DNA from: a virus
Length of the DNA stretch: 22,667 nucleotides
Virus record (IMG/VR): IMGVR_UViG_3300043436_000235
Location: 1-22,667 of that record
Strand: one strand, 5' to 3'
Shown: piece by piece, positions 1-20,357 of the stretch
Layout: every line of letters begins with the position of its first letter
Position numbering within the stretch: the stretch's first letter is position 1
Notes under the pieces: model-generated
Database searches by the model: none
What the model saw: the letters and a program-made list of their open reading frames with translations, nothing else
Told to the model about the DNA's origin: nothing
Program-made: the position numbers and the translations under genes

Positions 1-3000
1 TCCACCTTCTAGTAGAATTACTGGAACTACTGTAACGTTGCTGACTGTTTCTAATACACGCATAGATGCTATTGTTGCAGAAGAATTTGAATCAATCTGA
101 GAAATAGTATCTCCTATGTTTGCACTGATATTTGCAGTTAAGAATATCTTATAGCTGATATCATCAGTGACAGTATAGGCTGTGTTAACGGACAACGTAA
201 CATTTTCAGTTACTGTGTCTGGCACTACTTGTTGTAATCCGGCGTCAACCACTCTTGAATCCACTGATTGTATAGTTGACGGTGCTGTACCATCAACAGC
301 ACGTCTGATTTGAGTCAGTATATTGACGTTTGCCAATTGTTTAACATTAGCTGAGATGTTGGCAAAGTTTTGAGTATATACGTTACCTAGTGTTAGGTAG
401 GTATTGCTGCTGTAAGTAATCAGTTCACCGACTGATACCAGCAAATTGCTAGACCATGGTGTTGGAGTTTCCAACGCATAATTTCTATAGTATGTGATTT
501 TTTCACCATTGATAAAAATCACGCCCGGACTTGCAATTTCTCTGTTTGGATTAGTTAATACGCTAGCATCATCGACATAAATGTTAGTGTCGCTCAGAGC
601 CAAGTTTCCGGATAACACGGTTGTGTTGGCCGCTGCAATTCGATAGTAACTTAATGCATCGCCTGTGTTGCCAAAAATCTTAAATGCTAAATTGCTAGTA
701 TCAAATACCGATAAACTTAAAGAATTTAACATTCTGCCAGGAATCAGTTCTTGTGGTGCGTGACTCTCAAATGTGTCAACATACTCACCGCCGTCGATAT
801 AGATAGTACTAGGACGAACTCCCAAGTCATCTGTGTACAGACTTTGTATAATACTGTCTAATTCTGTTCCAACATAACTGCTAACGTTTGCATCAGTAAT
901 AGAAGTATTGCCATCAACTATAACTCCGGGATAGTCAATGCCATCTTGAGTCAATGACAGGTCAATATTACCGTTAAAGGCAGTGATCCTATCGTTGGCG
1001 CTATCAAATATGTTGGCATTAATACCAGAAACATTGCTTGTTGGGAATGTAACATTGGCATCGATGACATAAGTATTTGCTAACTTAAATAAGCTACCAG
1101 ACAGCAGTATGATTGTATTGGCTGCAATAGTTTCTCCGACATTGGATGTAGTTAAATCAGTCCAGTTAACAAATACATTTGATGTAGTATAAGATACTCT
1201 GTCAAATTTCATATTTGTTTTAATGCTTCTAACTACGTTATGCCCGGTGTCTGCACCATCGTTAATGTTACGCAGAACTGCGCGACCTGTTGCACCAGTG
1301 CCGGTGCCATTGATAATAATATCTGGGAAAGTTGTATATCCAGATCCGCTTTCAATGATATAGATGTTGGCAATGCCGCCGCTGCTGTTGATAGTAGCGT
1401 ATGCTGTGGCTCCAGTTCCCCCGCCACCACTGATGGTAATTTGTGGTGCAAACAAATAATCTTGTCCAGCATTTTCTACAACTACATCAACCACTTGGTA
1501 CTTATAGTTGCTGTTCCACTGAGAGTAAACACCTTGTGTCCATAAAGTAGAATCGTATGTCTGCTCGCCGCTGGGGCTACGGTAAACCTGTAAGTTTGCG
1601 TCCCAGTAGGGAGGCAAATCAAAGTCTGTTATATCTGCGCCGTAATTATCATTTCGTTCGTAGTTGACAACAAACTCTCTAAGTACAGTTCTGTAAGGTT
1701 TAACCTCGTTAATATATTCGCGATAATAATCTTGATTATCGGCAATGTAAGCAGGGAATTGTTCCAGTTTTCTAATATATTGTGTAGCTGTTAGGAAACT
1801 GGTTTTAAATACCCAATCAAGATTCTTTTGCTCTGTCAATGCGTACTTGATGATTGCAAAGAATATTTGATTATATTCGTATTCTAAGTCGTCAATGAAA
1901 ATTTCGTTTTGCATTGACAACATAATTTGTCGCATTTCCTTAGCAGGAATTGTGTCTGTGGAAATCTGAATAGTTCCGTTTTCGATTCCCACTACAGTTA
2001 AACTTAGATCGGATTCAACGTAATAGATAATAAACTGATTATCAGCATCGTGAACAACTTTAACATATTGGTCAGCAACTAGAGTTAATTTACCTAGCTC
2101 AATGTTATTGGCAACAGTAACGTCCGGTGCTCTGGTGTAATCGTAGCCAGCTTCGTACCAACTTGAATTGGTCCAATACAATGTAGTCTTGTAACTTTGT
2201 ACTCTAGACAATATCCATTCAGTACCTGACCAAGAATAAATTGACCATTTGGTATCTTGTGACGAGTCATCAATTACTAAAACTTTATATCCAGATGCAA
2301 AAGAATCTGTGTTTAGGTAACTTAGTTCTTCTTCAGTGTTAACAACCTGATCATATTCTTGAGTATTTTCGTTGGGTATTGGCTCGCTGCTGTTTAATAA
2401 ATTTAAAACGCGACGCACAGTAACAGGATAATCTTGCAAATAGGTGTTAACAATGCTAAGGTAGTTGTCCCACGCTAACTGTCTGTCAATGAACATTGTT
2501 TGACGGGGACGAACACCAATTCCGTACCGCTGTGCAGGAGTAAGCACTGGATCCGGAACTACATTTCCCAGCTGATCTTGTCCAGCCAAACTGTCAATCA
2601 TTTTACTTTCGATAAACGGAGGAATTCTACTTGCTGGATTTTTTTCTTGTACCAGTGCATATTCGCTGTGTATTAATCCGGCATTTGCAGCCTTGCTACC
2701 AATATGTAAAATAGTATTTTGCCCTGTCAGCTGATTGTTGATATTGTAAATTGCAATAGTGTCGTTGCGAGGAACCACTGCGTATGTAACCCCTTGACTG
2801 CCGGGATTGTCGATTGCCGCAGTGATACTGTAGACGCTGTTATTCTTTCCAGGGGCAATAGTATCTTTGTTTACTACCCAGAAATAATATTTTATTTTTA
2901 CAGCACCCGATTGATCAACATACCCATATGTACTATAAGCAGAATTGTTAGCAAATACCGGAGTTCCGGTGCCAGTGTAGGCACTGGGTAGGCTCATACT

Positions 3001-6000
3001 TTCGACCCACTCGTATACTTGAATTTGGCTTCCCGGAAATTGTTCTCCCCAGTGTGTTATTCTGTATATTAAAGAATCTTGTTCGTAATCAATATATCTG
3101 ACAGAATTCAAATCCCACCAAATTGTGCCAACCTGTTCAGGTCCCCAATGATAGTCAACAGAGACTGTACCGGAGCCGGCATTATAGTATGCTGGATCAT
3201 TGTTACGCTGATAATCAATATCTTGCAATACTGAATTTAGTACTTTTCCTTTAGCAGGGTCTATGTAGTCAACTGTTGATAAAATATTGTCGTTTGTTTT
3301 ATTATAAACAAATATTCTATTGATACTGTTAATATCCACACGAGGCTCTTGTTGTCTAGTCAAACTCCAGGCCTGACTGTTTATATCGTTAACAAATACG
3401 TGTGCAGATCCAATAGCAGATGTTTTAATTTCATTATTAGCCCATCGTTCGTCTGTCCCAGGGGCACCTGCTATAACTAAACTATCAGTTAGATCAATGC
3501 TGTATCCAAATTCGTCGCCTGATTGTACCTGTACTGCAATTTCCTGTACATAGCTGTATACGTTTGAGTTATTGGTCAAATCTGTTATCAATTCAAATAC
3601 GTAAACTGCTCCGCTGTTTGTTATGTAGTCAACAAATTGAGTAGTGTTTGTATCAATGATTGTAGTTGTTTCGTCAAATGTTGTTGTTTCATCTGCCGGG
3701 CTACCTTTGCTGCCAACTGCAAGAGTTTGCGCATCACCGGTTACACGTACACTAGTACCAAACGATCCAGTTGCACCCTGTGGATTTACCAAATGTTCTT
3801 TGTACACATACGAACTGCCATTGTGTACCCAACGCTCGATTACGCCATTTGAATAAGTCAATAATTTGCTGCCAGGGACACCAACAAATAGGTTTGTTCC
3901 TGTTGCATCTGTGTCTAAGCTATAACCAAATTGTGCCCCAACATTTGAGCTGGTTGCTGTTGTAATTGTTTGCGCTAAACTAAATGTGTTTGCTGATCTA
4001 TTATAGATGTAAACATTTCCATTTTCGTTTACTGTATTGTCTGCGTCTGACGCAGATACTATTAATACTGATCCTGTGCTGTTGGTTTTTATTGCTTGAC
4101 CAAATAAGCTACCAACTGTACCGGATTGCTTCTTAACCCAACTATAGCTTGGTAACACAACGTTGGCTGTATAGTAGGCCTCAAACATATCGTTGTCGGC
4201 ACCGCCAACATACAACCAGTGCCGGTCTGCACTTAGGCTAACACTTGATACTGCGGTAATATTAGCAGATGCAATAGTTTGCACCCAGGCCGGAGTTATA
4301 CTGTTGGTATGGCGATATACCTGTACAGTATCAGCAGACCCAACAATTAATAAATTACCTTGCGCATCCAACACCTGACCAAATTGTGCGTTGGTATTGG
4401 CCACAGTTACGTTCGCTGAATAATCGTCCAGAGAATAAACTTTAACCTGCGATTGTCCCGGATTTCCAACATAGAAATATGATTCGCCAATACGTACAGC
4501 AGATCCAAATCGACTATTAGTCGTAACGGTGTTTGCAGTTAGTTGAGTATCTGAATCGTTATTCCACGGGAATGTAAATGAATATACTCCCCAACCTTCG
4601 CTGGTAGCACGGTTAACCCATAGGCGATCATTATTTTCCCAGTGTCCTGCTGGTCGTACGCTGTTAACATCGGTTATTGAATTAACAATCGCAGAAGTTA
4701 ACTTGTATATTATACCACTGCTTTCTGTTCTACTGCTAGTGGCGATCAGATCCAATGGATTCTGTAGTATGATTGTTACACTGGTTGCAGTAGGAACACT
4801 AACCACTCGGTATAAGCCGTCATATTTTTCGTCAAAGTCTGCAAGTATAAAATAATCATTGCGCACAAATGTATGCTGAATATCAAATGTCAGTTTAGCA
4901 AAAGAATCTAGTGCATATACCAGTGTTGTTGCTTCTAAATTAGTAATGGATATTCTAAATACATTCCATTGGTCATTGTAATCTTTTGCTACCCATACTT
5001 TCTTACCGTCCCCGGGACTGGGTATTGATGTAACATTCTTGATGTCAAAATACGTATAGTCAATATCTTGTACGTTTACAAAGCCCGCGGTCGGCAAATC
5101 AGTTGTATAATTTGTTTGTGTTCTATTATCATACAAGCTAGTAGAAACATTTAAAATATTTCCAGCCGAGTATACGTTTGAAGTAATATTGCCTGTATAG
5201 GAATATGTATTCACCGCTAAGTTAGCAATAATATTGCCAGTGCTAAATGTATTGGCAGTTAATGTAAACGCAACAGGATCGTTTAAGAATTCACTTTGAT
5301 CTAAAACAAACTCTGTGTACTGATTGCCATTTAGGTCACCGTATGTGCCAACGTGAAACGCCCATTCTTCGTATGTCTTAATGTTACCGGACACGTTATT
5401 AAATGTGGCTCGTGTTAGTGCTTCTACAGCATTTGCTGTGCCTTTTTGTTTGATATACCCTTGATAAAACTTGGTCTGAGTAGGAATAGACATTCCCAAG
5501 TCCGTTAGGTAAGGTCTTTCTCTAAATCCAATTAGACCAGAACTGAATGCTTGTAAAGTTTCATCTTGGGGCGGCAAATCTACATCGTAAATTCTTTCAA
5601 ACGTTTGTGCCTGTGTACCAAGACTTGGTAATAGACCAGATCGTTCGTCAATACTAGACGCCACAGTCCAAAGAGAAAAGTTAAATGTTTGGCTAGCCGG
5701 AACATTATTAGCCGTTGCTGTATAGTATATTCCGTTATACTCTATTAGATCACCGCGTCTATAATCTTGTCCAGTTTTCCAGGCACTGATATCTAAGTTA
5801 CTGTAAATATATCCGGCTGCACTTAATGCACCAGTCCACGCACCAGTTTTAAATCCAGTTACTTTTAATCTAAACTGACGTGTTCCTTGAGAAGGAACGT
5901 ATATAACATCGCCGAAGTCACTGGCATTATCAAATATCAATACACTTTCGCTTTGTATCAAATTGAATCTAGCAAATCCGATGCTGGCGCCATTGAGAGC

Positions 6001-9000
6001 AGTAATTTGAAAGAAATTCTGTTCTGGTGATTCTGTTCGTAAAATATTAAATTGATTGCTTTTAATTGGAACAAAATTTTGATCCAGAATCATACCTTTG
6101 TTAGGTAGGTTAGAAATTTCGTCTACCATTGATCCGTTGGATGAGAAGCTCAGTTTAGCAGCCATTGGATTCAATACCAATAATGTGCCAGAATCCCAGC
6201 CTTGCTGTGCCCAATATAAAAATTCACGAACGCTCAGAGTCCAATTTCTTGGTAATCCCAAATCTGGATCTACCGTAGTAAATAAGAACCCGCTGGCTGT
6301 TAGCTGTCTTTCGTAACTGATCAAAAAGTCTGCCAATTGTTGTGGCGTTGCAAACGTTGCCCCATAAGGAATTGAAGTTACTGTTGTGCTGCTAGATTGA
6401 TAAATCTTAACTGATAAATTGTTAACTGTAACTACCGCAGGGGCACTAGTATTAACTACGCTGGGTAATATATCAAAAAATGGTTGGTTGATGTTGTACC
6501 CAGACACGCTGTATCCAGCCTGTGTTTTTTCAACAATAACTGCGCTATAGGTAACGGTAGTAACTGGAACAGATTTCCCGAGATAAACATCATAATTGTT
6601 ATCTGGTAGCACTACGCTTGAATTGGTACTACCCGGACTTGTTTGCTCTGCAGAAACTGTAAGTATGTTTTTGTCTGTGAATCCTGCGGTTTTATATGCC
6701 AAGTTAACATTTAAGTTTTGTAGATAAGAATTGATTTTAACCACAGGATCAATTCCTAGATTTTTTAAATAATCTCCAATCCAGTTAACATATCCGCTGG
6801 TACGCAACACAGTACCCGGTACAGTGGTAGTATCACCGTTTACTCTAAGAGCTGACGGAGTTACTTTTTTATTGTCTATATTAGAAAATTGCCCTGTTAT
6901 TGCATTTTCAAAGAAACGACTTGTATCTATTTGTGTAGCAAAATACTCTGCAGGTCTAGCCAATGATAATGCTAATTGTAAAGCATAAGGAAAATCGCTG
7001 CTGCGTCTCCACGCTACTTCGCTAGGAGATTGTTCACCCACACTAAAGTTGCTTGACGCACTTGTTATGTTATATTGCTTAACTAAATTTGCATCAGTTG
7101 GCGATAATAAATTACCAGCTGCATCAGTTGGTATAAAATCTTTAAGATTGGGTCTAACAAATCTAGCATCAGTATACGACTGCCCATTGTTCCACACATA
7201 GCCAGCAGCTAAATCGTCCCATAGTGTAGTGTTTCCATTTGTATATGGACCGGGGCCGTAACGATCTTCCCACCAACTTGGCTCAATGTCAAATCCTAAC
7301 ATTTTCCAAGGAGTTGTATTTGGTGTATCTGTGTCAAACCAATATTGATAAATTGCTCTCCAGGATCCTTGTAAGAATGATCCGTCAACTATATCAACAA
7401 ATTTATTGTAGTTCCAGGTCCAGGAATCATTGGCATCATACCATTCATTGTTGGTGTAATCAATATTGTTTACGCCAACCCAGTTTAAAAAGTTTTGGCT
7501 TAACAATTGATTCCATTCGTTCAATGAGTAGTCAGTTGTTCTAAATCTACCTGGTATAACATCTTCTGGATCTATTATATTGTTTTCGTAGTTGGACTTA
7601 ATATTATTATAAATTCTACGTTCAATTTCTAATAGATAGTCGTCGCGGAAATCACCAAACGCAGGTGTCAATGATCCATCGTGACCACGTATTACATCTA
7701 TGGGAGTTCTATAACTATCATCTGTGTAAATCTCAGGAGAGAACTTTGAGTATAACCCCAACTTGGTTGGAGTCTCAGGTATATAATTACCGTCAGTGTT
7801 GGCGTAGTCTCGTATGACTAAGGTGTCCCCAAAAGTCAATTGTTTTAATATAGTAACTGCCGGCACAGTTGAACTAAAGGTATAATCAACACCTTTGGTC
7901 AATTGCGAACCGTTATGGTATACTAATACTGCACGATTTCCCAGTGCTGTGTCGTCAAATATTGACGAAATTTCGTACTGAGTCTGTCTAGCATTTAAAA
8001 TGCTGTAGGATATCGAAGTGTACTCTGATCCGTAAGGGACCATATCGCTGTAATACCAAGGAAAGCTGCTGTTTTTTACCGAGTTGATACTAGATAGAAT
8101 TAAATCAACCCCTGTTACAGGATCATTATAATCTAATGTAGTCAGTGTTACGCAGGCCTGTAAAAACTTATTTTTAAAGCGTTGATATTCTTTACGTGCC
8201 AAAGATATACCGTCAACAAAATTTAATTGTTGATCATTTAAAAAAGTCATTGCATACAGCAGAGGTCCGCTATGTTGCAATAGTGTACCACCTTGTGCTT
8301 TTACATATTGGTCCTGAATTGGTATATCGTTGTTAGATGTATTTTCAATTAATTTATTGTAATGAGTACGTATTTGTCCGAGTGTAATAGTGTCAAAAGT
8401 TTCATTAAGTGGATTATAATCTAAGTTTTCAGGAACAACATAGTATCCTGTTTTGCTAATGGTGTTGCTGTATACCGCCACATCTATCTTGGCACCAATA
8501 TTAGGTAACGTGGTTAGTAATACAACATCATAAATTCCCACTTTAGTAACAGTATAATCAGTGTCGGGGTCAAGTAATGCATTATCTAAGAAGACTTTGA
8601 TGTAGGGAACGGTTGCTTGATCCACAGGCAATATATCTATTTGCACAAACGCATATTGTTGACCGGAGACTGTTACCACTAGCCCGTCATAAAACTTTGA
8701 GAACATTTGGTACTGATCGCTTATTTCTACGCTGTTGACCCAATTGTTAAGTTTTACAGAGGTAGTTAATCCTGAGTTTTTAACTATATAACCAGTACTG
8801 CATTTAACTGGTGCAGAAGCTCCTGTGTAAGTAAAAGACTCTACATCGTAATAGTTCTTAAAGACTATATCGCCAATGTTATTAAAGTTCTGATACTTTA
8901 ACGGAAACCCCAGTAGTAGGTCATTATTGCCTGTGCCTACATCGTAACCAAAGAACTTTGTGCCTGTAAAAGTTGAAGCAGGATAAACGGTAGTATCTGA

Positions 9001-11079
9001 AAAACTATACCCATCTGTGTCTACTAGATCAAACAATGGAGCTTGATTAAATGCTGTTTTATTTTGGCATTCACTCCACTCAGTTCCATCAAAGTAAAAA
9101 GTTTTATTTGCATACGTGCCTTGTGTTACTAGTACATTTTCGTAAGGCAGCACCGGATCATCAGTTGTTTCAATCAGTCTGATAAAAAACTGATTATTAA
9201 TTGTTTGTACATCCACTAGCCAAATTTTATTTGTGACATTAACATCGTAATCGTTAGCAAAAACAATTCGCTGCCCAGTTACTAGTTTGATGCCTTGTAT
9301 GTACGCTTCAATTTGCCCAGCATATTCATTGAAAGCATCAGTTGCTGTAAATACAATCAGATTGATATTGTCTTTGGCCGACTTACCAAAATTAAACAAT
9401 TGTAGGCTTGATTCAAATTCAATGATAGGACGCCGTCCTGCAATATTGGGTCCATAGTCTACTTCTGTTTTATTGTATTCAGCGACAGCATTTAATACAT
9501 CAACGTGGAACCAACGATTTGTGCGGCTCCAAGGATTATGATCTTGACTGGTACGGTTAACAGTAATATAGTCCGCTGTTGTTTCTATTAGAGATGTGAA
9601 AGCTGCGGGCACAGTCAGCTGACTGACTGCAATCAATTGAATTGAGGTACCCACACCTTCTACATACCACTGACTGTTGGCATAGGAGCTAGGAACAACC
9701 AAGCTGTCAAATTGGATTTTTAGTCCATTGGTGAATTTTATACCGTTTGGACTAGTATATCCTATTTTACCAAGTATATCGCTGTTTACATCAATCGGCA
9801 CACTGGCATTGTCGACTATTTTAATTTGACCCACAAATCCTGGATTTGCACTGTCTTGATAAAATAGATAATTTAACGGCGCTGTTATTACCGGAACAAT
9901 ATTGTACTGTTCGTTGTTGTTTAACCAAAATTGTGTGCTGGCATAAAGTGTGCCCGATTTAACAAAAACTTTTTCTTTAATTCCAACTGCGTCAATTGGT
10001 ACTAGTTGTATTAGATAGTCAGTTGTACCGACAGGGCTTAGTGTAATCTTCCAGCTGCCTCGACGATACTGTGTCGGTGCTATGCCAGGTAAGTATCCGC
10101 CCGAGTCAAATGGCATAACGTTATTAAATCCGTTGGTGTCAAATGTTCCTTCTGCTGTCCACAAGTCGTCATCGACATCTGAGTTGATAAAAATTATAGT
10201 TTTGTTTTGTAGTTGTGCATTAAGCCCGTCAATGCCTTCTGGAAATTCTCTCAAGAATTGGCTGAGCAATCTATTTTGTATCTGACTATAACTAAAAGTT
10301 GCTGCTGCATCAACCTGCGTAGCAATTGGCATTCTTACATAAAAATCTTGTGCAGTTGCTAATGGTACATTGAATGTTACCGCACCGCTATCTGTACCAT
10401 TGTTTTTAACTCCAAATATTTCTCTTGTGCCCACTGTGGAGATGTTGGAATCTACTCCCGAAGTACCTACTTCATTTTGTAGCCAAAACTTAAAGCCTGG
10501 CTGATCTACTGTAAATGTGTAACGACCACCTCGTGCTAGTGTTAGTTGTGTATTTGGGTGCGGGCCCACACCGCTAAATGTATACCCGCCTACGTTAGTA
10601 TTGCGTGTTACTACATAGTCTGCTCTTAGAGGAGTATCCCCTGCTGTGACTGATACTGCGGCTGTTCCGTTTGGTAACCAATAATAGTTGTTATAGTTTA
10701 CAAACTTGTCGTAATCTGTATGGCTGTCGTAGTTGTAGGAGTTAGTTCTAAATAGTCGTTGTTGATTGTCCGACTTACCATTATAATTTTCAACGTTCTG
10801 TAACAAATCAGCGTAGGTAGTATTAAAGATTATATCAGCATCTTGATTGCGAATTACAACACTGGGCTCAAGTTGATACTTTGTGCGTTGCTGTGTTGGC
10901 TCAGGTATGTAATTATCCCCTTGCTTGTATGTGGGTGCGAAAGTTCTACCAATGTATCCATTGATCGGCACATTAAAAGAATCTGTCACTAGCTGATCTA
11001 GTGTGCTTCCAAAAAATCGTTGGTTAGTGTCGGATCTAAATACTTCAGGTAAAAAATTTAGGGTGCTAATTAATGCCAT
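1..11079 (-). CDS. Giant baseplate/tail structural protein following gp6 (partial, at least 3693 aa)
   Basis: One uninterrupted frame runs from ATG at 11079 to the left edge without a stop, so the C-terminus is missing. The start has a good ribosome site (AGGA about 8 nt upstream), and the ATG overlaps the gp6 stop (TAATG), implying coupled translation in the late baseplate operon. The protein is rich in Asn, Thr, Ser, Tyr and Val, with no signal peptide or membrane segment, as expected of a beta-rich virion protein. Visible pieces in order are an N-terminal region with YYWLPNG near residue 125, a Trp-dense segment (about 1189-1296), a seven-blade FG-GAP propeller (about 2185-2570), a segment with YINEVKPYRT (about 3115-3125) and tandem Gly-rich repeats (3194-3273). 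Further beta-strand repeats follow to the edge. Its place after gp6 matches T4 gp7 (1032 aa), but this protein is far longer and I cannot show gp7 homology. It is probably a baseplate-peripheral or fibre-like protein; the exact role is unknown. Confidence 0.85.
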   Translation of the reverse strand, partial: MALISTLNFLPEVFRSDTNQRFFGSTLDQLVTDSFNVPINGYIGRTFAPTYKQGDNYIPEPTQQRTKYQLEPSVVIRNQDADIIFNTTYADLLQNVENYNGKSDNQQRLFRTNSYNYDSHTDYDKFVNYNNYYWLPNGTAAVSVTAGDTPLRADYVVTRNTNVGGYTFSGVGPHPNTQLTLARGGRYTFTVDQPGFKFWLQNEVGTSGVDSNISTVGTREIFGVKNNGTDSGAVTFNVPLATAQDFYVRMPIATQVDAAATFSYSQIQNRLLSQFLREFPEGIDGLNAQLQNKTIIFINSDVDDDLWTAEGTFDTNGFNNVMPFDSGGYLPGIAPTQYRRGSWKITLSPVGTTDYLIQLVPIDAVGIKEKVFVKSGTLYASTQFWLNNNEQYNIVPVITAPLNYLFYQDSANPGFVGQIKIVDNASVPIDVNSDILGKIGYTSPNGIKFTNGLKIQFDSLVVPSSYANSQWYVEGVGTSIQLIAVSQLTVPAAFTSLIETTADYITVNRTSQDHNPWSRTNRWFHVDVLNAVAEYNKTEVDYGPNIAGRRPIIEFESSLQLFNFGKSAKDNINLIVFTATDAFNEYAGQIEAYIQGIKLVTGQRIVFANDYDVNVTNKIWLVDVQTINNQFFIRLIETTDDPVLPYENVLVTQGTYANKTFYFDGTEWSECQNKTAFNQAPLFDLVDTDGYSFSDTTVYPASTFTGTKFFGYDVGTGNNDLLLGFPLKYQNFNNIGDIVFKNYYDVESFTYTGASAPVKCSTGYIVKNSGLTTSVKLNNWVNSVEISDQYQMFSKFYDGLVVTVSGQQYAFVQIDILPVDQATVPYIKVFLDNALLDPDTDYTVTKVGIYDVVLLTTLPNIGAKIDVAVYSNTISKTGYYVVPENLDYNPLNETFDTITLGQIRTHYNKLIENTSNNDIPIQDQYVKAQGGTLLQHSGPLLYAMTFLNDQQLNFVDGISLARKEYQRFKNKFLQACVTLTTLDYNDPVTGVDLILSSINSVKNSSFPWYYSDMVPYGSEYTSISYSILNARQTQYEISSIFDDTALGNRAVLVYHNGSQLTKGVDYTFSSTVPAVTILKQLTFGDTLVIRDYANTDGNYIPETPTKLGLYSKFSPEIYTDDSYRTPIDVIRGHDGSLTPAFGDFRDDYLLEIERRIYNNIKSNYENNIIDPEDVIPGRFRTTDYSLNEWNQLLSQNFLNWVGVNNIDYTNNEWYDANDSWTWNYNKFVDIVDGSFLQGSWRAIYQYWFDTDTPNTTPWKMLGFDIEPSWWEDRYGPGPYTNGNTTLWDDLAAGYVWNNGQSYTDARFVRPNLKDFIPTDAAGNLLSPTDANLVKQYNITSASSNFSVGEQSPSEVAWRRSSDFPYALQLALSLARPAEYFATQIDTSRFFENAITGQFSNIDNKKVTPSALRVNGDTTTVPGTVLRTSGYVNWIGDYLKNLGIDPVVKINSYLQNLNVNLAYKTAGFTDKNILTVSAEQTSPGSTNSSVVLPDNNYDVYLGKSVPVTTVTYSAVIVEKTQAGYSVSGYNINQPFFDILPSVVNTSAPAVVTVNNLSVKIYQSSSTTVTSIPYGATFATPQQLADFLISYERQLTASGFLFTTVDPDLGLPRNWTLSVREFLYWAQQGWDSGTLLVLNPMAAKLSFSSNGSMVDEISNLPNKGMILDQNFVPIKSNQFNILRTESPEQNFFQITALNGASIGFARFNLIQSESVLIFDNASDFGDVIYVPSQGTRQFRLKVTGFKTGAWTGALSAAGYIYSNLDISAWKTGQDYRRGDLIEYNGIYYTATANNVPASQTFNFSLWTVASSIDERSGLLPSLGTQAQTFERIYDVDLPPQDETLQAFSSGLIGFRERPYLTDLGMSIPTQTKFYQGYIKQKGTANAVEALTRATFNNVSGNIKTYEEWAFHVGTYGDLNGNQYTEFVLDQSEFLNDPVAFTLTANTFSTGNIIANLAVNTYSYTGNITSNVYSAGNILNVSTSLYDNRTQTNYTTDLPTAGFVNVQDIDYTYFDIKNVTSIPSPGDGKKVWVAKDYNDQWNVFRISITNLEATTLVYALDSFAKLTFDIQHTFVRNDYFILADFDEKYDGLYRVVSVPTATSVTIILQNPLDLIATSSRTESSGIIYKLTSAIVNSITDVNSVRPAGHWENNDRLWVNRATSEGWGVYSFTFPWNNDSDTQLTANTVTTNSRFGSAVRIGESYFYVGNPGQSQVKVYSLDDYSANVTVANTNAQFGQVLDAQGNLLIVGSADTVQVYRHTNSITPAWVQTIASANITAVSSVSLSADRHWLYVGGADNDMFEAYYTANVVLPSYSWVKKQSGTVGSLFGQAIKTNSTGSVLIVSASDADNTVNENGNVYIYNRSANTFSLAQTITTATSSNVGAQFGYSLDTDATGTNLFVGVPGSKLLTYSNGVIERWVHNGSSYVYKEHLVNPQGATGSFGTSVRVTGDAQTLAVGSKGSPADETTTFDETTTIIDTNTTQFVDYITNSGAVYVFELITDLTNNSNVYSYVQEIAVQVQSGDEFGYSIDLTDSLVIAGAPGTDERWANNEIKTSAIGSAHVFVNDINSQAWSLTRQQEPRVDINSINRIFVYNKTNDNILSTVDYIDPAKGKVLNSVLQDIDYQRNNDPAYYNAGSGTVSVDYHWGPEQVGTIWWDLNSVRYIDYEQDSLIYRITHWGEQFPGSQIQVYEWVESMSLPSAYTGTGTPVFANNSAYSTYGYVDQSGAVKIKYYFWVVNKDTIAPGKNNSVYSITAAIDNPGSQGVTYAVVPRNDTIAIYNINNQLTGQNTILHIGSKAANAGLIHSEYALVQEKNPASRIPPFIESKMIDSLAGQDQLGNVVPDPVLTPAQRYGIGVRPRQTMFIDRQLAWDNYLSIVNTYLQDYPVTVRRVLNLLNSSEPIPNENTQEYDQVVNTEEELSYLNTDSFASGYKVLVIDDSSQDTKWSIYSWSGTEWILSRVQSYKTTLYWTNSSWYEAGYDYTRAPDVTVANNIELGKLTLVADQYVKVVHDADNQFIIYYVESDLSLTVVGIENGTIQISTDTIPAKEMRQIMLSMQNEIFIDDLEYEYNQIFFAIIKYALTEQKNLDWVFKTSFLTATQYIRKLEQFPAYIADNQDYYREYINEVKPYRTVLREFVVNYERNDNYGADITDFDLPPYWDANLQVYRSPSGEQTYDSTLWTQGVYSQWNSNYKYQVVDVVVENAGQDYLFAPQITISGGGGTGATAYATINSSGGIANIYIIESGSGYTTFPDIIINGTGTGATGRAVLRNINDGADTGHNVVRSIKTNMKFDRVSYTTSNVFVNWTDLTTSNVGETIAANTIILLSGSLFKLANTYVIDANVTFPTSNVSGINANIFDSANDRITAFNGNIDLSLTQDGIDYPGVIVDGNTSITDANVSSYVGTELDSIIQSLYTDDLGVRPSTIYIDGGEYVDTFESHAPQELIPGRMLNSLSLSVFDTSNLAFKIFGNTGDALSYYRIAAANTTVLSGNLALSDTNIYVDDASVLTNPNREIASPGVIFINGEKITYYRNYALETPTPWSSNLLVSVGELITYSSNTYLTLGNVYTQNFANISANVKQLANVNILTQIRRAVDGTAPSTIQSVDSRVVDAGLQQVVPDTVTENVTLSVNTAYTVTDDISYKIFLTANISANIGDTISQIDSNSSATIASMRVLETVSNVTVVPVILLEGG
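1261..1500 (-). repeat. Tandem Gly-rich structural repeats in the giant protein
   Basis: Two adjacent copies (residues about 3194-3273) follow the pattern V/I-x3-G-x2-Y-x3-P-x-I-x-I-x-G-x-G-T-G-A-x-A. Copy one contains ITISGGGGTGATAYATI and copy two contains IIINGTGTGATGRAVL. Each copy pairs a GxxY turn with a GTGA turn, typical of repetitive beta-structured phage fibre or tail segments. The region may form a small beta-roll or spike segment. Confidence 0.6.
3370..4527 (-). repeat. Seven FG-GAP-type repeats: predicted seven-bladed beta-propeller inside the giant protein
   Basis: Blades open with an F-G (or degenerate) motif followed by a beta strand, then a V-G-x-P/S or equivalent turn. The Phe positions are residues 2191 (RFGSAVRIG), 2233 (QFGQVLD), 2326 (LFGQAIK), 2384 (QFGYSLD), 2440 (SFGTSVR) and 2524 (EFGYSID). 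A degenerate blade without F-G sits at about 2274-2300 (VSLSADRHWLYVGGAD). Each blade then shows a turn such as YVGNPG, IVGSAD, FVGVPGS, AVGSKGS or IAGAPGT, and most close with a V-x-V/I-Y strand. Spacing is 41-84 residues. Seven blades match the closed ring of integrin alpha-type propellers. In other proteins this fold commonly mediates protein or glycan contact; a contact or receptor role here is inference. Confidence 0.8.
7192..7515 (-). other. Tryptophan-dense segment of the giant protein
   Basis: Residues 1189-1296 contain 12 Trp in 108 positions, including WW in a segment reading IEPSWWEDRYGPGPYT and the pieces SWTWNYN and LWDDLAAGYVW. This is about ten times the usual Trp frequency. 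The segment is otherwise Asn-, Asp- and Tyr-rich. The clustering suggests a compact aromatic domain, possibly for interdomain packing or carbohydrate contact. The function is not established from sequence. Confidence 0.6.
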
Positions 11080-14000
11080 TAGTATGTTCCTACTAGGTTG
11101 TTGCCAAGATTAAGTTGTGCTGCGGTTACTGCACCAATGATGTCAATGTCGTTAACTGTTGCTGCACTGGTGATAATTTCCCAAGGTTCGCTGTTGATTT
11201 GAAAGTAATTACCAAATACTAAACTATCGCTAGCTGGTACAATTAAAATACTAGCTATGTTAGGAGCCAATGTTGAGTGCAGGTATGCTGATAACTCTGA
11301 AAAATAGAATGTATCACCAAAATCCCAGTTGCCAACATCAAAGTATCTATTGATTGCTGAAATAACTTGACTCTTTATTTCGTTATCGGTTATATTGACT
11401 GCTGGATTTTTCACTACCTGAAAACGTGCCTGTAATGAAGGGTCTGCTTTTGCGCCGAACAATGGTTTAAATTTGGCAGGATTATAGACTATGCTATCGC
11501 TAACAGTTTTGTAGTTATCTAACTCGCTGTAGTCAATTTCCAATGTACTTGAAGTAGGCGGAGTTGGCTGTGTTAGTGTACCAGTTAAATCTCTAAGCCA
11601 AGCAGCATATGTTCTAGTATACTCCGAAGTTAGAATATACAAATCAATGATGTTAATAGGCGTTGGATCAATTCTATTACGGCTAGGAGAATTGTGTTTG
11701 TATCTAAAATACAAATTGTCTCGGCTAGTGCTCGAACCAGCAGTGGTTGTATATAGATCGGGATCGTCCGGAACTCCCTCAAGGTGTGAACTTGGGGATT
11801 TAACTAATATTTTACTGTCGTCGACATATCCATCCACTGCTGTAATTATATCGTAAACTTGCCAAATTACATCAGTGTCCATTGGTTGTGCGCCACCGGG
11901 CTTGGTATTAATTTTTAATAGTTTAATCGAATCTGTTATGTTCTCACCGCTCAACGAATCATAAACTTTAACAGTTGGATCGTAGTAGAATTTAGTCGAT
12001 CCGGTACTGGAGAAAGTGTATGCCAGTGTCTTGTACTCGATATTATATAGCCCTTGATTGTAATTAAACTTCATCAACCATCCAGAATCTGGTGTTGTGC
12101 CAATGTTCGACGGTGGTATGTTTTTCCATACCTGATTTACTTGATCGTATGTTAATCCAAAATTAGTTTTTGCTGCAATCTGACTAACCATTGTGCTAAT
12201 TAAACTGCTGGATAGATCATTTTTATATGTAGGAATAATACTTGAATTTCCCAATAGCCCAGGGCCAGTTATAACAGCTCCAGTGGGCACTACATTAGCA
12301 AATCTAATTAAGTTTGGTGTGGTTGGATCAGTTGCTGCAACTACACCAGCGACCGCTGAGTAAAAAGTTGAGCTGTTGCTGGTGAACTGCACCGTGGCAC
12401 CGGGTGCAATATATTGAAGGTTACCAGTTACTCCTGTGCCTACTTGCAAGGTATTTCCAGCATACTGTAAGTAGCCACTGCTGCTGACTGTGCTATTTGC
12501 TGTTTGAAAAAACGTTACATTGGCATAAGGACTATTATAACGTTGGTAATTAGCATAATAATAATTACGCATACCAGTTGAATTGATTGCTGGAATTACA
12601 TCATTATAAATTGCATTATAAATGTCGTTAGAAGTCAAAAAGTCAAAATTCAATGACCTGGCAGCGGTATTTGCTGTAATAGTGCCATCTTCGCCAAATA
12701 TGTTTGTGCTACTATAGCTCTTGGTTGGGTCCAATGAATCTAAATATAAACTAATTCCTGAACTAGTTCTGTTGACTGCTTTAACTTTTTGTATGCTGGT
12801 AAATGTAGTCAGCGGAAGAATATTATAATCCTCACCGGTAATCATACGATTTTGTGTATAGTACTGTTGCGGTGCATACGACTTAATAGAATTCAATGAT
12901 TGAGTTGATGTAGCATTAGTAACAGTATATTTCAAACTAGCAGTAACAGTTAATGTTTCTACTGTGTTTTTAGAACTGATATAGCTGAATGCCACACTAA
13001 CTGATGACATATCATCTGGCGTTACGCTATAGTTTGCACCTGTGTTGGTACGGTAATAGAATCTGAAGTTTCCCTGAGGAATATTACTAAAGCTACCGTC
13101 GCCAAATACTAATCCAACTTGATCGTTGCTTAACGAATTAATTTGGTATAAGTTTTTATTTGATTCTTGATTGTAAATTACGTTGACACCGGTTAATGCA
13201 GGAACTGCGCCCCATAGTGTTTGCGTTGAGTTATTTGGGCCAAGTTGGTATAACCAATGGTCATTGTTGTTGATATTATTTGTAGCTATTTGTACAAAGT
13301 TATTTGGGATAGCATTTTGAAAATTAATATCTGTTGCCTGCAGATTGCCTTGTTTAAAATACAAGAACATACCAGTATCATTACTACCGTTACCGTTGTT
13401 ATCATTTCTGTATAAAATGTTAAATCTACCCGATACAGTTGGATCAACTTCGTATATGTAACTTTGCCCAACAGATGTTGCACTAACTGCTTCAAATGGT
13501 AAAGTAGTTGACAATAGATTTACGTTAAACTTGGCCACTGGCAAGCTGTTTGGATTTAGTCTTATACTGTATTCATCTGTTTGAATACCGTTTAATACTT
13601 GGCTATTACCGGGCTTGCCCAGTGCTTGTCTAGAAACCAGTGCAGAATTAATAATTGTAGTAAACTGCTCTAACCAATTATCGTTAGTAAGATCGTTCCA
13701 ATTAACTGTAACACCTGACAGGTTAATTCCGCTGCTGTCAGTTATAGTTTCTGTTGTTTGCACTGAATCAATTTTTACTAATCCAGTTGCACTGCTGCTG
13801 CGAGTTGGATTGTAACTTAGCATACGGGATAGCTTTAAAATACTATCTCTGCGCTGTGCTGTGTCTAAGAAGTTTTCCCGTGCATTTAAATCTGAGCGGA
13901 AAGAAAGGCTTTGCCCCAGGAATGCAATACAATCAATTAGGGCCAAATATTCAGAGCTTTCAATGAAATCATTGAATGTTTCTGGATAATATGTCTTAAT

Positions 14001-14129
14001 GTACTCAATCATACTATTACGAAGTGTTTCAAAATCGTAACTGGTAAAATCAGCATTGCTGAAAGATTGGTATACTTTTGTCCAGTCCTGTTCGACTAGT
14101 AAGTTAGTTTGACGAGTAGTTTGTGCCAT
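11079..14129 (-). CDS. 6: Baseplate wedge protein gp6 (enlarged, 1016 aa)
   Basis: This is a baseplate wedge subunit. In T4, gp6 dimers form the inner ring that ties wedges around the hub and belong to the gpJ-like family. The N-terminal 150 residues carry the gp6 signature: SYDFETLRNSMIEYIKTYYP, then ESSEYLALIDCIAFLGQSLSFR, then SDLNARENFLDTAQRRDSILKLSRMLSYNP. The C-terminal quarter (DNEIKSQVISAINRYFDVGNWDFGDTFYFSEL) is the conserved gp6/gpJ ending. The middle is Asn/Thr/Ser-rich with long beta-type insertions, including a Gly/Thr/Val-rich stretch around residues 560-660. This makes it about 350 residues longer than T4 gp6 (660 aa). The start follows a weak AGGT site and a late-promoter-like AATAAATA. 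It lies 48 bp after gp25, and its stop overlaps the ATG of the giant gene. Confidence 0.93.
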   Translation of the reverse strand: MAQTTRQTNLLVEQDWTKVYQSFSNADFTSYDFETLRNSMIEYIKTYYPETFNDFIESSEYLALIDCIAFLGQSLSFRSDLNARENFLDTAQRRDSILKLSRMLSYNPTRSSSATGLVKIDSVQTTETITDSSGINLSGVTVNWNDLTNDNWLEQFTTIINSALVSRQALGKPGNSQVLNGIQTDEYSIRLNPNSLPVAKFNVNLLSTTLPFEAVSATSVGQSYIYEVDPTVSGRFNILYRNDNNGNGSNDTGMFLYFKQGNLQATDINFQNAIPNNFVQIATNNINNNDHWLYQLGPNNSTQTLWGAVPALTGVNVIYNQESNKNLYQINSLSNDQVGLVFGDGSFSNIPQGNFRFYYRTNTGANYSVTPDDMSSVSVAFSYISSKNTVETLTVTASLKYTVTNATSTQSLNSIKSYAPQQYYTQNRMITGEDYNILPLTTFTSIQKVKAVNRTSSGISLYLDSLDPTKSYSSTNIFGEDGTITANTAARSLNFDFLTSNDIYNAIYNDVIPAINSTGMRNYYYANYQRYNSPYANVTFFQTANSTVSSSGYLQYAGNTLQVGTGVTGNLQYIAPGATVQFTSNSSTFYSAVAGVVAATDPTTPNLIRFANVVPTGAVITGPGLLGNSSIIPTYKNDLSSSLISTMVSQIAAKTNFGLTYDQVNQVWKNIPPSNIGTTPDSGWLMKFNYNQGLYNIEYKTLAYTFSSTGSTKFYYDPTVKVYDSLSGENITDSIKLLKINTKPGGAQPMDTDVIWQVYDIITAVDGYVDDSKILVKSPSSHLEGVPDDPDLYTTTAGSSTSRDNLYFRYKHNSPSRNRIDPTPINIIDLYILTSEYTRTYAAWLRDLTGTLTQPTPPTSSTLEIDYSELDNYKTVSDSIVYNPAKFKPLFGAKADPSLQARFQVVKNPAVNITDNEIKSQVISAINRYFDVGNWDFGDTFYFSELSAYLHSTLAPNIASILIVPASDSLVFGNYFQINSEPWEIITSAATVNDIDIIGAVTAAQLNLGNNLVGTY

Positions 14130-14149
14130 ATGTGTTTACCTATATCATA

Positions 14150-14177: not shown

Positions 14178-14555
14178 TTAATATGATGATGTTAGGGATC
14201 TTGTGGTTTGATCAAACAATAAGTTGAAAGTTTCAGACTGATCTGTTGGTACATAAGTCAAACTTATTTGTATTTGTAAGCCGTTTGTTTGTTCCGTAAT
14301 TGATACCGATTCTACTGCAAGTCGGGGATCATAACGAACTATACGTTTGACATCGTCTGATATAATCTGTTGGGAATCATCATCCAATGGTTCGAATAAC
14401 ATATCCCATATAATCGTGCCAAAATCAGGATTCATTAATCGAGAACCCTTTCTAGTATTAAAGTAGTTAAATAGATCCTGTTTAGCCAGAGCATAATCCT
14501 CTAAGCTGTACTTTTTCTTGTTAACTAGTGTGCTAAAACCTCTGTATGTTGCCAT
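14178..14555 (-). CDS. 25: Baseplate wedge protein gp25 (GPW/gp25 family)
   Basis: This small baseplate wedge and sheath-initiator protein is conserved across contractile tails and type VI secretion (TssE family). At 125 aa it is close to T4 gp25 (132 aa). Family features visible are an N-terminal basic KKKYSLEDYALAKQDLFNYF, then NTRKGSRLMNPDFGTIIWDMLFEPLDD (residues about 34-60) with the R-x-M-x-P-x-F-G core, then a C-terminal beta section with VRYDPRLAVESVSI. The gene sits between the 221-aa hydrolase-like gene (13-nt gap) and gp6, as expected for a wedge operon. The start is the only ATG that gives the full family length. No Shine-Dalgarno sequence precedes it, and a late-promoter-like box lies only 5 nt upstream. 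Confidence 0.95.
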   Translation of the reverse strand: MATYRGFSTLVNKKKYSLEDYALAKQDLFNYFNTRKGSRLMNPDFGTIIWDMLFEPLDDDSQQIISDDVKRIVRYDPRLAVESVSITEQTNGLQIQISLTYVPTDQSETFNLLFDQTTRSLTSSY

Positions 14556-15235: not shown

Positions 15236-16783
15236 TTATGGGAATCCAGAGCTGGCTATACTAGATGCTGCCGAGGCACCACTTGCAAAATTACTAACAG
15301 CATTACTTATACCAACTCCTAATAATGCTAGAGAACCACCAAGTACTATATTTTTAAGAGCATTATTGCCAGAGCCGTTTGGACCAGGGCGGGTGCCGTC
15401 TGAGTTTTGCCATGGTTCGTGGCCAGGTACCACAGTACAGGTACTGGCCACGGCATCATCTTGCAGTTCCCAGCGTGTGCCACTGAATTGCACATCCGGG
15501 AAATCTTTAGGCATAGTCGGTATCACAGGGATTGGTATTGGAGGTTTGCCGCTGTTTAGTTTCAGCATACCCAATCCAACAATGCTGGTGATACTAGGCG
15601 AACCAATGGTCAATGGGCCGCCTGACGATATTGTTGTTGTTGCCATACCAGTGATACTTAAAAATCCATTGGTCTTTAGAGAGGCTCCAGTCATACCCGA
15701 AATACCAACAGATGCTAAACTAGATATGTTTACACCCTTTGACCCTTGTATGTTTACTGCTCCGCCGCTGTGTATGTTTACTAACGTGTCACTATGTAAA
15801 TTTAATGCCCCCACAGTGCGCAGATTAAATCCTGCATATCCGTACATATTAATCATACCGTTGTTACTAAATTCCATCCAATGGTATCCGCTAGCACTGC
15901 CTATATAGAATACTTGCTCAGTATCGTTCATTAATATCTGATGTCCCGCAGATGTGCGCAGTCTAATCAATTGATCTGTTCCGTCGGCGGCTGCCCCATC
16001 ATCCATAACAAATTGGTGACCACCTTTGCGCATTATAACCTGCTGAGGATTGTCTTTGACTTGATCTGTGGTTGTAGCTTTGCGTCCCGGAGTACTTATA
16101 CCATATACATTACTAGGACTTTCTCTTAGACTACTTGAACTAATAGAACCGCGAATTTTATCTCTATCTAACCCTTGTCCTATTAACAAAGAACTTTGGT
16201 ATTCGTGAAAGTATCTGGGTGTTTTTTCCAAGCCGTCGGCATCAAATGCTTTAGGTGATGCTGTACTGGATTCTACCACTGGTAGTATACTGTCAGGTCC
16301 CAGGTATGGAGTTACTGGACTGTCTGTGGGTGCTGTAGTATTTTCTGAACCACCGATGTTTCTGGCTAGACCGGGAACCATATGGTGTGTTGGGCTGTCA
16401 TAAACACAAGCGAACCAATAACCACGATCTCTCGATCCTGCAACAAATGTAACTAAAACTTGGCACCCAATATCAGGAGGTACAAACCACATACCGTAAC
16501 TTTGACCCACTGTGTTTGCATTATCAGGAAGAAGTTGACTATCTGTTCCGTAGGTTGTTCCATAGAACGGACTTGCATAACTAACTGTAGTTTGCGAATT
16601 TGGATCTTCTAGGTCGTCGCCCCAGTCCGGGATATAAACCAGTAGCTGTCCCATCCTTGAACCTTCAACGTGTTTTACTACCGTTGCCACATACGGGCCT
16701 GGATCAATTGTGGTGCCGGCTTTTTTACTGTCAGCGGTATATGACGTACTGCCTGCCGACGATCGTTCTGCGTTACTTGCCAT
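15236..16783 (-). CDS. 5: Baseplate hub spike gp5: OB-fold plus beta-helix, no lysozyme domain
   Basis: This is the central spike of the baseplate (gp5/VgrG type). Residues about 25-150 form the gp5 OB-fold: YVATVVKHVEGSRMGQLLVYIPDWGDD, then YGMWFVPPDIGCQVLVTFVAGSRDRGYWFACVYD. Residues about 245-420 have the short alternating Gly/Ser/Val/Ile/Asn repeats of a triple-stranded beta-helix (GALNLHSDTLVNIHSGGAVN and following). Unlike T4 gp5 there is no lysozyme domain between these parts. The next gene may provide it. The C-terminus is unusual: after a Pro-rich linker, VVPGHEPW and a GPNGSG spacer, residues 478-510 are a hydrophobic Gly/Ala/Ser segment. The start has CGGAA 9 nt upstream. A 44-bp gap with a late-promoter-like box separates it from the preceding gene. 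Confidence 0.9.
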   Translation of the reverse strand: MASNAERSSAGSTSYTADSKKAGTTIDPGPYVATVVKHVEGSRMGQLLVYIPDWGDDLEDPNSQTTVSYASPFYGTTYGTDSQLLPDNANTVGQSYGMWFVPPDIGCQVLVTFVAGSRDRGYWFACVYDSPTHHMVPGLARNIGGSENTTAPTDSPVTPYLGPDSILPVVESSTASPKAFDADGLEKTPRYFHEYQSSLLIGQGLDRDKIRGSISSSSLRESPSNVYGISTPGRKATTTDQVKDNPQQVIMRKGGHQFVMDDGAAADGTDQLIRLRTSAGHQILMNDTEQVFYIGSASGYHWMEFSNNGMINMYGYAGFNLRTVGALNLHSDTLVNIHSGGAVNIQGSKGVNISSLASVGISGMTGASLKTNGFLSITGMATTTISSGGPLTIGSPSITSIVGLGMLKLNSGKPPIPIPVIPTMPKDFPDVQFSGTRWELQDDAVASTCTVVPGHEPWQNSDGTRPGPNGSGNNALKNIVLGGSLALLGVGISNAVSNFASGASAASSIASSGFP

Positions 16784-19056: not shown

Positions 19057-19359
19057 TTACAGCCCCAGAGATATTTTTACTACTTCTTTGTTGGGCAAAT
19101 ATATCACCCTCGGGGCAATAAAATCAAACAATGGATCTTTAAGAATATCTGGATTTCTTAAAGTAAATACCCACCAAAGATTAGTATCGCCGTATAAGTC
19201 ATATGCTAAAAGATCTGGGCGACGGTTATATAATGTATCAATTTGATACAAGGCGTCGCTGGGGTCTGGATTTATTGTTTTACCAGCCCACAGGTCCAAA
19301 AATGTGCCCCATAATCCTGTTCCCGAATATAAACTAGTTTTAGAGTATGTAGCTGACAT
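19057..19359 (-). CDS. 53: Baseplate wedge protein gp53
   Basis: This is a baseplate wedge subunit. T4 gp53 clamps neighbouring wedges together and has a LysM-like fold. The 100-aa protein is essentially the conserved core: YSGTGLWGTFLDLWAGKTI, then YNRRPDLLAYDLYGDTNLWW, then RNPDILKDPLFDF and a C-terminal VIYLPNKEVV. The RPDLLAYDLYG...LWWVF...NPD pattern is diagnostic. It is about half the length of T4 gp53 (196 aa), which is common in environmental relatives. I start it at ATG 19359 rather than an in-frame ATG 36 nt further upstream. A strong GGAGGA site lies about 8 nt before 19359, and the resulting TAATG overlap with the preceding gene is a typical coupling arrangement. Confidence 0.9.
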   Translation of the reverse strand: MSATYSKTSLYSGTGLWGTFLDLWAGKTINPDPSDALYQIDTLYNRRPDLLAYDLYGDTNLWWVFTLRNPDILKDPLFDFIAPRVIYLPNKEVVKISLGL

Positions 19360-20357
19360 TAAATAAATCCTCCGGGTCCACCGCCTGTGGTCCATTGACC
19401 ACCTTGGCTAGTTCCATAAACAGTAACTCCGCCATTGGCAAATGGAGAATTAATAAGAGCACCTTTACTAAAGTCCCTGAGACTAAATCCTTGGCTCTGT
19501 GAAAGTCTGCTGTATATTGGCTGCAAGGTTAGTGTGATAGTACTCTTTGTTGGTAATCTTGTGCTATTAAGTCTGTAGCTAACTGATTGCGGGTTATATT
19601 GTGTTCTAGTAGCTGCTGGCTCCGGTACTTCTATATAGTCTACATCTGCTGGCATAGTGTGTGCAAAAGACGTAACAATACAAGATACATTTGGTAGATA
19701 ATATTGACCGTAACCATTTAGATAAACGATAGGGGGCGGTGTTCCAGCATCTGGATCTCCACCAAAAAACATTTTTGTAACACTACGGAAAAAGTGTAGT
19801 GTTGCCAATAGGTATTGTCCCTCGTTCACATTCTGCACAGTAAATTCGCCGGCAATAGATATAGCCTGTACTGCGCTGCTATCGTAAAAATAATTTGTAT
19901 AATTGCTATGTGTTAATTTTTGTTCAGAGTAACTGGCCACGTGTGTTACTGTAATGTTTGGGGTGTAGGGAAATACTACACCTATACGTTTTTTTCCGCT
20001 TAATCCAACTGTGTTAGTTAAACTATTAACAATTTGTCCACCGAGACTGTCACCAATTTGATTAACCAATGGACTTAATAAGAAGTTATTGGGATCTTTA
20101 TAAAAATAGTCTGCGCCCGGTGCTAAACTTATACGTACTCGCCAGTCCTGATTGGCATTGGGATACTTTATTTCTGGAGGACTATTTGTACGATCTACAT
20201 AGCGGAACGCCTGGGATAAAGTTAATCTGCTGCCCGACTGTTCGAGCGTGGATGGCCCAAAAGTAGTGGACTGTGGCGCATAGCCTACTTGGCTCATACG
20301 GGGAGTTCCGGAATCTGTTGCTAGGCCAGATCTTAAAGAATTAGGTAGTACAGGCAT
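19359..20357 (-). CDS. Baseplate tail-tube connector, gp48/gp54-like
   Basis: This 332-aa protein is the first gene of the leftward late operon. Residues 1-60 are Ser/Gly/Thr-rich. The core holds VVFPYTPNITVTHVASYSE (about 127-145), THSNY (149-153) and SIAGEFTVQNVNEGQYLLAT (167-186). It continues with LHFFRSVTKMFFGGDPDAGTPPPIV (187-211), PNVSCIVTSFAHTMPADVDYIE (222-243) and a closing STITLTLQPIYSR. The FPYTP / HFFR-TKMFFG-PPP / DVDY pattern belongs to the tail-tube initiator/cap group (gp48 or gp54; T4 lengths 364 and 320 aa), which joins the tube to the hub. I cannot decide between gp48 and gp54. The C-terminus is Gly-rich (QWTTGGGPGGFI), and its DNA carries the Shine-Dalgarno sequence of gp53. 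A perfect late promoter precedes the gene. Confidence 0.65.
   Translation of the reverse strand: MPVLPNSLRSGLATDSGTPRMSQVGYAPQSTTFGPSTLEQSGSRLTLSQAFRYVDRTNSPPEIKYPNANQDWRVRISLAPGADYFYKDPNNFLLSPLVNQIGDSLGGQIVNSLTNTVGLSGKKRIGVVFPYTPNITVTHVASYSEQKLTHSNYTNYFYDSSAVQAISIAGEFTVQNVNEGQYLLATLHFFRSVTKMFFGGDPDAGTPPPIVYLNGYGQYYLPNVSCIVTSFAHTMPADVDYIEVPEPAATRTQYNPQSVSYRLNSTRLPTKSTITLTLQPIYSRLSQSQGFSLRDFSKGALINSPFANGGVTVYGTSQGGQWTTGGGPGGFI

Follow-up and report, generated by a model that had tools for sequence, protein, structure and literature searches.

A single frame of 3693 codons lies directly behind gp6 in a viral baseplate gene cluster, which raises the question of whether it is a real gene and whether its product is a counterpart of the T4 wedge protein gp7, a fusion of several T4 baseplate proteins, or a host-contact protein that merely adjoins gp6. 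The DNA analysed, hereafter the window, is a virus record of 22,667 bases (IMG/VR IMGVR_UViG_3300043436_000235). The frame is best explained as the N-terminal 93% of a giant virion protein of the phrog_10938 family from a jumbo myophage, which probably serves as a wedge scaffold in the gp7 role and carries exchangeable modules.

The minus-strand frame (window 1..11079) runs from an ATG to the left edge of the window without a stop, while each of the other five frames of this region contains 199-368 stops; at local composition so long an open run has an ln P of approximately -257, which excludes a chance origin. An AGGA motif lies 8 bases 5' of the ATG, and the ATG shares one base with the gp6 stop codon (TAATG). 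The entire gene was recovered on a sister contig of the same virus, IMGVR_UViG_3300042868_005031 (L014), which is identical to the window at 19543 of 19553 overlapping bases. In L014 the gene spans 8475-20357, encodes 3960 aa (438 kDa) and shares four bases with the next ORF; the window holds the N-terminal 3693 of these residues (93%), with the 3' end outside it. This confirms the preliminary description of a single frame of at least 3693 residues with a ribosome site, continuing past the window edge, and supplies the leftward extension to the C-terminus that it had proposed. All 10 differences between the two contigs fall at window 127-232, inside 106 bases near the contig end and within the C-terminal tail of the giant, reflecting either strain variation at this spot or an effect of assembly near the edge. 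The relative L015 has a colinear frame of 3530 aa, with 59% identity to residues 1-2168 and 49% to residues 2543-3960. A tandem-repeat search gave one 31-base array, and a sigma-70 promoter scan of 8000-22667 stayed at chance level (51 found against 49.1 expected).

The giant is no artefact, and it is not exceptional either, belonging as a typical member to a widespread family of giant jumbo-phage tail proteins. Its match to phrog_10938, annotated 'virion structural protein' (profile of 3324 positions), covers four stretches with an E value of 0 and 1087 bits, and all 11 members scanned match this profile; the category given by PHROGs is 'head and packaging', not tail. Searching with residues 1-3000 (tblastn) retrieved 60 phage records (21.5-30.4% identity), in which some phages appear under two accessions and of which the last three span only 11-20% of the query, and residues 2194-3693 retrieved 57 phage records. 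Matches with named members are colinear over most of the giant's length. By sequence the PDB yielded only a chance match (E 0.82), and nothing with the A1 profile either. The giants of named phages, each in an annotated record and free of internal stops, have the following lengths:

Phosso (L002): 4555 aa
Atu_ph07 (L006): 4449 aa
PA5oct: 3857 aa
Salicola phage SCTP-2: 3807 aa
Vibrio 2.275.O: 3771 aa
CBB: 3340 aa
RaK2: 3326 aa
121Q: 3323 aa
XacN1: 3313 aa
RAS14: 3138 aa

Scanning viral contigs with the core alignment gave at least 593 confirmed relatives among 599 stretches, of which the best 80 loci were kept, and a scan of genome bins gave 7 loci. The ORF is complete in 56 of 96 loci from viral contigs and metagenome bins (3432-6190 aa, median 4359); these lengths are no random sample because the 80 loci are the best-scoring of at least 593, and the 56 include the window virus itself (L014) as well as duplicates, e.g. 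L015/L016 and L134/L135. The window giant is slightly short within this sample. The longest complete frame among the loci has 6190 aa (L103:3869-22441), and a further one runs on for 6222 residues and still does not reach its stop (L098:3890-22555). Two divergent giants of 3942 and 4024 aa occur in the Gammaproteobacteria bin MED685 (L139, NZGL01000017; L140, NZGL01000008), and their divergence and unlike lengths suggest that two jumbo phages may be binned there. The exceptional length claimed at first is thus not upheld, as the giant belongs to a known family with single frames of approximately 3100-6200 aa in relatives, which is the very observation that the preliminary description had named as speaking against novelty. 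A protein of approximately 3,700 residues in the gp7 position is accordingly not exceptional: jumbo phages have such proteins widely, and they are also known from cyanophages.

Records of homologues point to a place in the virion. PA5oct gp355 is marked 'ESI-MS/MS' in its record, and CBB_236 is listed as a structural protein with values of 21 and 7.72, taken as peptides and % coverage, in the part of PMC5259590 covered here. The covered part of PMC7247149 gives phAPEC6 gp245 as a protein of 381.88 kDa with 17 unique peptides and 7.6% coverage, adjoining gp244, a 'baseplate wedge'; from gene position and mass alone, we infer that gp245 is the orthologue of the giant. Together these suggest that phrog_10938 giants are virion proteins, by mass spectrometry in PA5oct and CBB and by position in phAPEC6, all of them homologues of the window protein.

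The position directly behind gp6, as initially reported, is borne out by the profile matches of the neighbouring gene and by the overlapping stop and start codons. The annotated genes of the window are:

1..11079, minus strand: giant gene (phrog_10938)
11079..14129, minus strand: gp6 (baseplate wedge), 1016 aa (phrog_10646 E 1.6e-277; phrog_219 E 2.3e-24)
14178..14555, minus strand: gp25 (PF04965 E 2.6e-14)
15236..16783, minus strand: gp5-type hub protein with OB domain (PF04717 E 6e-5; phrog_13211 E 4e-26)
16828..19053, minus strand: virion structural protein phrog_11190 (E 4e-35)
19057..19395, minus strand: gp53 (PF11246 E 5.5e-6; phrog_7145 E 7.9e-24)
20453..21352, plus strand: late sigma factor, gp55-like (phrog_12791 E 1.3e-80)

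The gene order is therefore phrog_12050, gp53, phrog_11190, gp5-type hub, a 221-aa ORF, gp25, gp6 and giant, with the late sigma factor divergent. The 221-aa ORF (14569-15234), between the hub gene and gp25, matched nothing in Pfam (E <= 0.1) or PHROGs (E <= 0.01), and a gene matching DUF6071 (E 6.3e-13) adjoins the late sigma factor at 21359-22081 on the plus strand. At E <= 1e-5, homologues of the window gp6 occur in 83 phage records. Each of the 56 complete ORFs is preceded on the same strand by a gp6 homologue, with -1 to 112 bases between the gp6 stop and the earliest start available to the giant, and gp6 adjoins the giant in 9 of 10 named phages inspected. The exception is SCTP-2 (L004, MF360958), with gp6 at 231230-234955 and the giant at 128-139 kb, 92 kb apart. 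The SCTP-2 giant lies behind another giant gene (139271-148561, approximately 3096 aa) that has no annotated function (record region 127770-148561).

The modular composition first suggested by the sequence is evident across the family, in which near-constant blocks alternate with stretches bearing the length variation together with the propeller and CBM5/12-like modules. The alignment comprises 63 distinct sequences, among them those of 10 named phages and of the window virus. Block lengths were taken between six conserved anchor residues in 59 of these 63 members, L131, SCTP-2, XacN1 and RAS14 being dropped as an anchor residue is not kept. From the N-terminus, the minus-strand blocks are:

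10678..11079, minus strand: residues 1-134, N-terminal near-constant block with an LP motif and a Y/W-rich end (132-161 residues in 59 members)
9529..10677, minus strand: residues 135-517, variable stretch 1 (25-723 residues in 59 members)
7360..9528, minus strand: residues 518-1240, mostly conserved with occasional insertions (652-1685 residues)
5440..7359, minus strand: residues 1241-1880, near-constant core block with invariant columns (585-740 residues)
3115..5439, minus strand: residues 1881-2655, variable stretch 2 (346-1679 residues)
1696..3114, minus strand: residues 2656-3128, second core block of mostly constant length (427-939 residues, sd 67)
1..1695, minus strand: residues 3129-3693 in the window, variable C-terminal tail (180-1691 residues in 59 members)

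Residues 1881-2655 account for 51% of the length variance, the C-terminal tail for 23%, and residues 135-517 and 518-1240 for 12% each, with 0-1% contributed by each of the blocks 1-134, 1241-1880 and 2656-3128. This division separates the parts that should be located in a baseplate map from those that are probably equipment of particular lineages. Placed along it are the following segments and modules:

5668..5784, minus strand: residues 1766-1804, CBM5/12-like module (Pfam CBM_5_12 E 0.0028, below Pfam's cut-off)
5365..5496, minus strand: residues 1862-1905, conserved helical 'FY.G.I.QKGT' segment
4690..4959, minus strand: residues 2041-2130, small beta-barrel (AF2 model)
3394..4575, minus strand: residues 2169-2562, FG-GAP beta-propeller (FG-GAP_2 E 2.6e-6 at 2518-2562; seven FG-type repeats by eye)
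1255..1542, minus strand: residues 3180-3275, Gly-rich beta module (phrog_460 E 3.3e-10)
238..627, minus strand: residues 3485-3614, beta module akin to one in cyanophage gp7 (hhalign)

The CBM5/12-like module recurs: of 11 members scanned, 9 match CBM_5_12 at E <= 0.01 (best 1.7e-12). The model of the window copy superposes on chain P1 of 8fqc, the Milano baseplate entry, with an rmsd of 1.3 A over 45 residues (Z 8.2). FG-GAP was found at E <= 0.01 in 5 of the 11 members scanned; among 11 close relatives, 7 align across the propeller and 4 lack it. In VIA-align comparisons the beta-barrel reached Z scores of up to 10.7 with E1 enzymes and 8.4-9.6 with phage endosialidases, while the Gly-rich module gave a weak, noise-level fold match to T4 gp18 (3foa_C, Z 6.2). 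Residues 3485-3614 align with residues 70-166 of the gp7 of cyanophage P-SSM2 at Prob 70 for the whole profile and 89 for the slice, falling to 4.6 and 17, respectively, once the profile includes Melnitz-type sequences. The stretches at approximately 1690-3170 in Phosso and 1660-3150 in Atu_ph07 hold modules of the cyanophage giant and wedge families phrog_701, phrog_19630, phrog_4406 and phrog_708, with phrog_2885 in Phosso only; these common modules suggest exchange between the two lineages.

A gene placed directly behind gp6 in the baseplate cluster is common to T4 gp7 and the window giant, and profile comparisons with T4 gp7 gave no significant similarity. More specifically, the 63-member alignment against 29 T4-type gp7 sequences scored Prob 0.2 and E 0.25 in hhalign, and a T4 gp7 profile found nothing significant in 180-residue windows along the giant. 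The Pfam domains Gp7_helical and Gp7_5th matched neither the whole window protein nor slices of jumbo members, whereas a T4 slice matches both, and window slices (KGT and N-terminal) gave no gp7 match in PHROGs, including phrog_2885, phrog_701 and phrog_4406. As a positive control, a P-SSM2-type N-terminal profile did match T4 gp7 residues 734-813 (hhalign Prob 95.6, E 1.3e-8). A minimal counterpart of gp7 is P2 gpI (Tail_P2_I), whose family has a 'KGT' motif; Tail_P2_I had no match in four jumbo KGT slices or two N-terminal slices, and an alignment of P2 gpI was left out, its 80 loci all being 99-100% identical.

The KGT segment (residues 1862-1905) is a suggestive candidate, by sequence, for the wedge motif of gp7 and P2 gpI. 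It aligns to cyanophage (P-SSM2) gp7 at the sub-significant E values of 0.07 for the whole profile and 0.0023 for the slice, to the very P-SSM2 segment that matches T4 gp7, and it is the best place against the P-SSM2 profile apart from the accessory beta module. It was outside the six best of 64 windows against two other gp7 profiles, the Melnitz N-terminal and the T4 C-terminal one. An AlphaFold model of residues 1081-2170 is helical at approximately 1820-1890, which does not conflict with the match. The two structure models are confident only per domain (pTM 0.44 and 0.38). For neither did Foldseek find anything in the PDB at E <= 0.001, and the VIA-align matches listed held no gp7 chain, which excludes nothing. 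In BFVD there were 32 matches by fold at E <= 0.001; the strong ones include an Atu_ph07 structural protein and proteins of uncultured phages.

In T4, gp7 is a monomer present in six copies per tail, and with gp8 it forms a platform that binds gp6, according to the part of PMC3004832 covered here. We posit that the giant most likely fills this role, as its position suggests. It would be a wedge protein joining gp6 at the periphery, in approximately six copies per tail if like T4, with gp6-contacting and wedge-building surfaces held by the constant blocks. Exchangeable modules (CBM5/12-like, FG-GAP propeller, beta-barrels, Gly-rich beta) would sit in the variable stretches, where they may add to the thickness of the baseplate or serve in docking or touching fibres and the cell surface. 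This reading is supported by family membership, the place behind gp6, the virion records of homologues, the gp7 wedge segment of the giant in the same place in a cyanophage (P-SSM2), the modules that Phosso and Atu_ph07 share with cyanophage families and the concentration of length variance in the variable stretches. It is weakened by the lack of a significant T4 gp7 match, the sub-significant KGT alignment, the empty Foldseek search of the PDB with models confident only per domain, the SCTP-2 placement and the 'head and packaging' category. A more specific form of it is tentative and rather doubtful: the giant could be a gp7 with a split wedge domain, whose LP block (1-134) and KGT helix (1862-1905) come together in space as one domain despite approximately 1700 inserted residues between them, further stretches being docking sites at which propellers and sugar-binding-like modules are exchanged among jumbo phages and cyanophages. 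The covered parts of PMC6102473, PMC5259590, PMC7247149, PMC12619734 and PMC3037559 contain no structural assignment of the giant, though one may be in print elsewhere, and that of PMC3622015 contains nothing on ORF070. The gp7 of PMC10966104, as described in the part covered, is a neck protein and another protein than the giant.

Alternatively, the giant could be a host-contact protein at the periphery, resembling a whisker or fibre and adjoining gp6 in gene order only, with a small unrelated gene providing the wedge part. The prevalence of CBM5/12-like modules (9 of 11 members) and the fold match to a chain of 8fqc, an entry for the Milano baseplate and receptor-binding complex, are consistent with this, as are the whiskers or hairs on CBB and phAPEC6 noted in the covered parts of PMC5259590 and PMC7247149, the SCTP-2 giant away from gp6, and a gp7 homology not demonstrable by profiles. 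We nevertheless consider it unlikely: models show the near-constant blocks with mixed globular folds instead of fibre repeats, the giant follows the gp6 stop closely in 56 of 56 complete ORFs, and tail-fibre-like genes follow the giant separately.

Still less probable is the fusion proposed in the preliminary description, in which one chain combines the functions of T4 gp7, gp8, gp9/10 and gp12. The great length and varied modules of the giant would accord with it, and in other members modules named for such functions are inserted, including the baseplate wedge subunits phrog_708 (L110, Phosso, Atu_ph07) and phrog_438 (Phosso and Atu_ph07), the baseplate hub and tail lysozyme phrog_1922, and the tail fibre phrog_5342 (Phosso), so that accessory baseplate modules do enter the family. 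The window protein, however, matches none of these four, and against T4 gp8, gp9, gp10, gp11 and gp12 it reached at best Prob 0.3 in hhalign (single T4 sequences), with no PHROG match. The recommended comparison with gp7, gp8, gp9, gp10 and gp12, made here by sequence profiles, gave no significant match. Downstream in the window virus, phrog_11259 and ORFs with tail-fibre matches are separate genes, L015 has a separate downstream ORF whose match is of collar type (phrog_1800 E 1.6e-7; Pfam Collar at 21 bits, under the cut-off of 24), and in PA5oct a gene apart from the giant, gp358, carries the note of a T4-like gp10, indicating that peripheral and fibre parts appear to stay separate genes. 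Of the original proposal, a giant tail or baseplate protein in the gp7 position stands, whereas the fusion of wedge, peripheral and host-contact functions is not supported, there being no gp7-gp12 profile match and the fibre genes being separate. A milder form of fusion is conceivable, given the CBM5/12 and propeller modules and the wedge-, hub- and fibre-named insertions in Phosso, Atu_ph07 and L110. An assembly error or missed frameshift joining separate genes, also considered at the outset, can be dismissed: the window consists of one contig that breaks off within the giant gene, and the homologous place is annotated as 2-3 ORFs in the Salmonella phage records SD-1_S14, SD-6_S16 and SD-2_S15, but the second contig L014 agrees with the window and colinear single frames in the 59%-identical L015 and more distant relatives refute this reading.

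Among known systems, T4 gp7 (1032 aa) resembles the window giant in following gp6 directly, with overlapping stop and start, and differs in being a quarter of its length and in sharing no detectable sequence or Pfam-domain similarity. P2 gpI has the 'KGT' motif in common with the giant by eye, whereas Pfam Tail_P2_I is without a match in jumbo slices. The giant gp7 of cyanophages provides a closer parallel. The P-SSM2 protein annotated gp7 has 5195 aa and comes after gp6, and its N-terminus matches three giant PHROGs, phrog_2885 (4179 positions), phrog_701 (6136) and phrog_4406 (3231), which a T4 gp7 slice also matches (E 1.1e-5, 0.0011 and 0.019, respectively); giants in the gp7 position are thus a known kind. 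In P-SSM2 (L022) this gene (77012-92599) has another very long ORF, of approximately 2506 aa (94250-101770), a short distance behind it. Cyanophage gp7 (P-SSM2; phrog_2885, phrog_701 and phrog_4406) and the window giant share the position after gp6, a length of several thousand residues and a similar accessory beta module, and the Phosso and Atu_ph07 giants share further modules with it; cyanophage gp7 has a detectable T4-gp7 wedge segment, with the motif KG[IT], whereas the jumbo family is without one by the tests applied. Most similar are the phrog_10938 proteins of RaK2-, CBB-, 121Q-, PA5oct-, Atu_ph07- and Phosso-type phages, which are colinear with the window giant, of the same length class and placed behind gp6 (9 of 10 named phages), some of them detected in virions, at 21.5-30.4% identity to the window protein. 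They differ in the stretch equivalent to residues 1881-2655, which in the window virus is long (775 residues) and holds the FG-GAP propeller, in RaK2, CBB and 121Q is 346-348 residues and, judged by spacing alone, lacks it, and in Phosso and Atu_ph07 extends to approximately 1670 residues.
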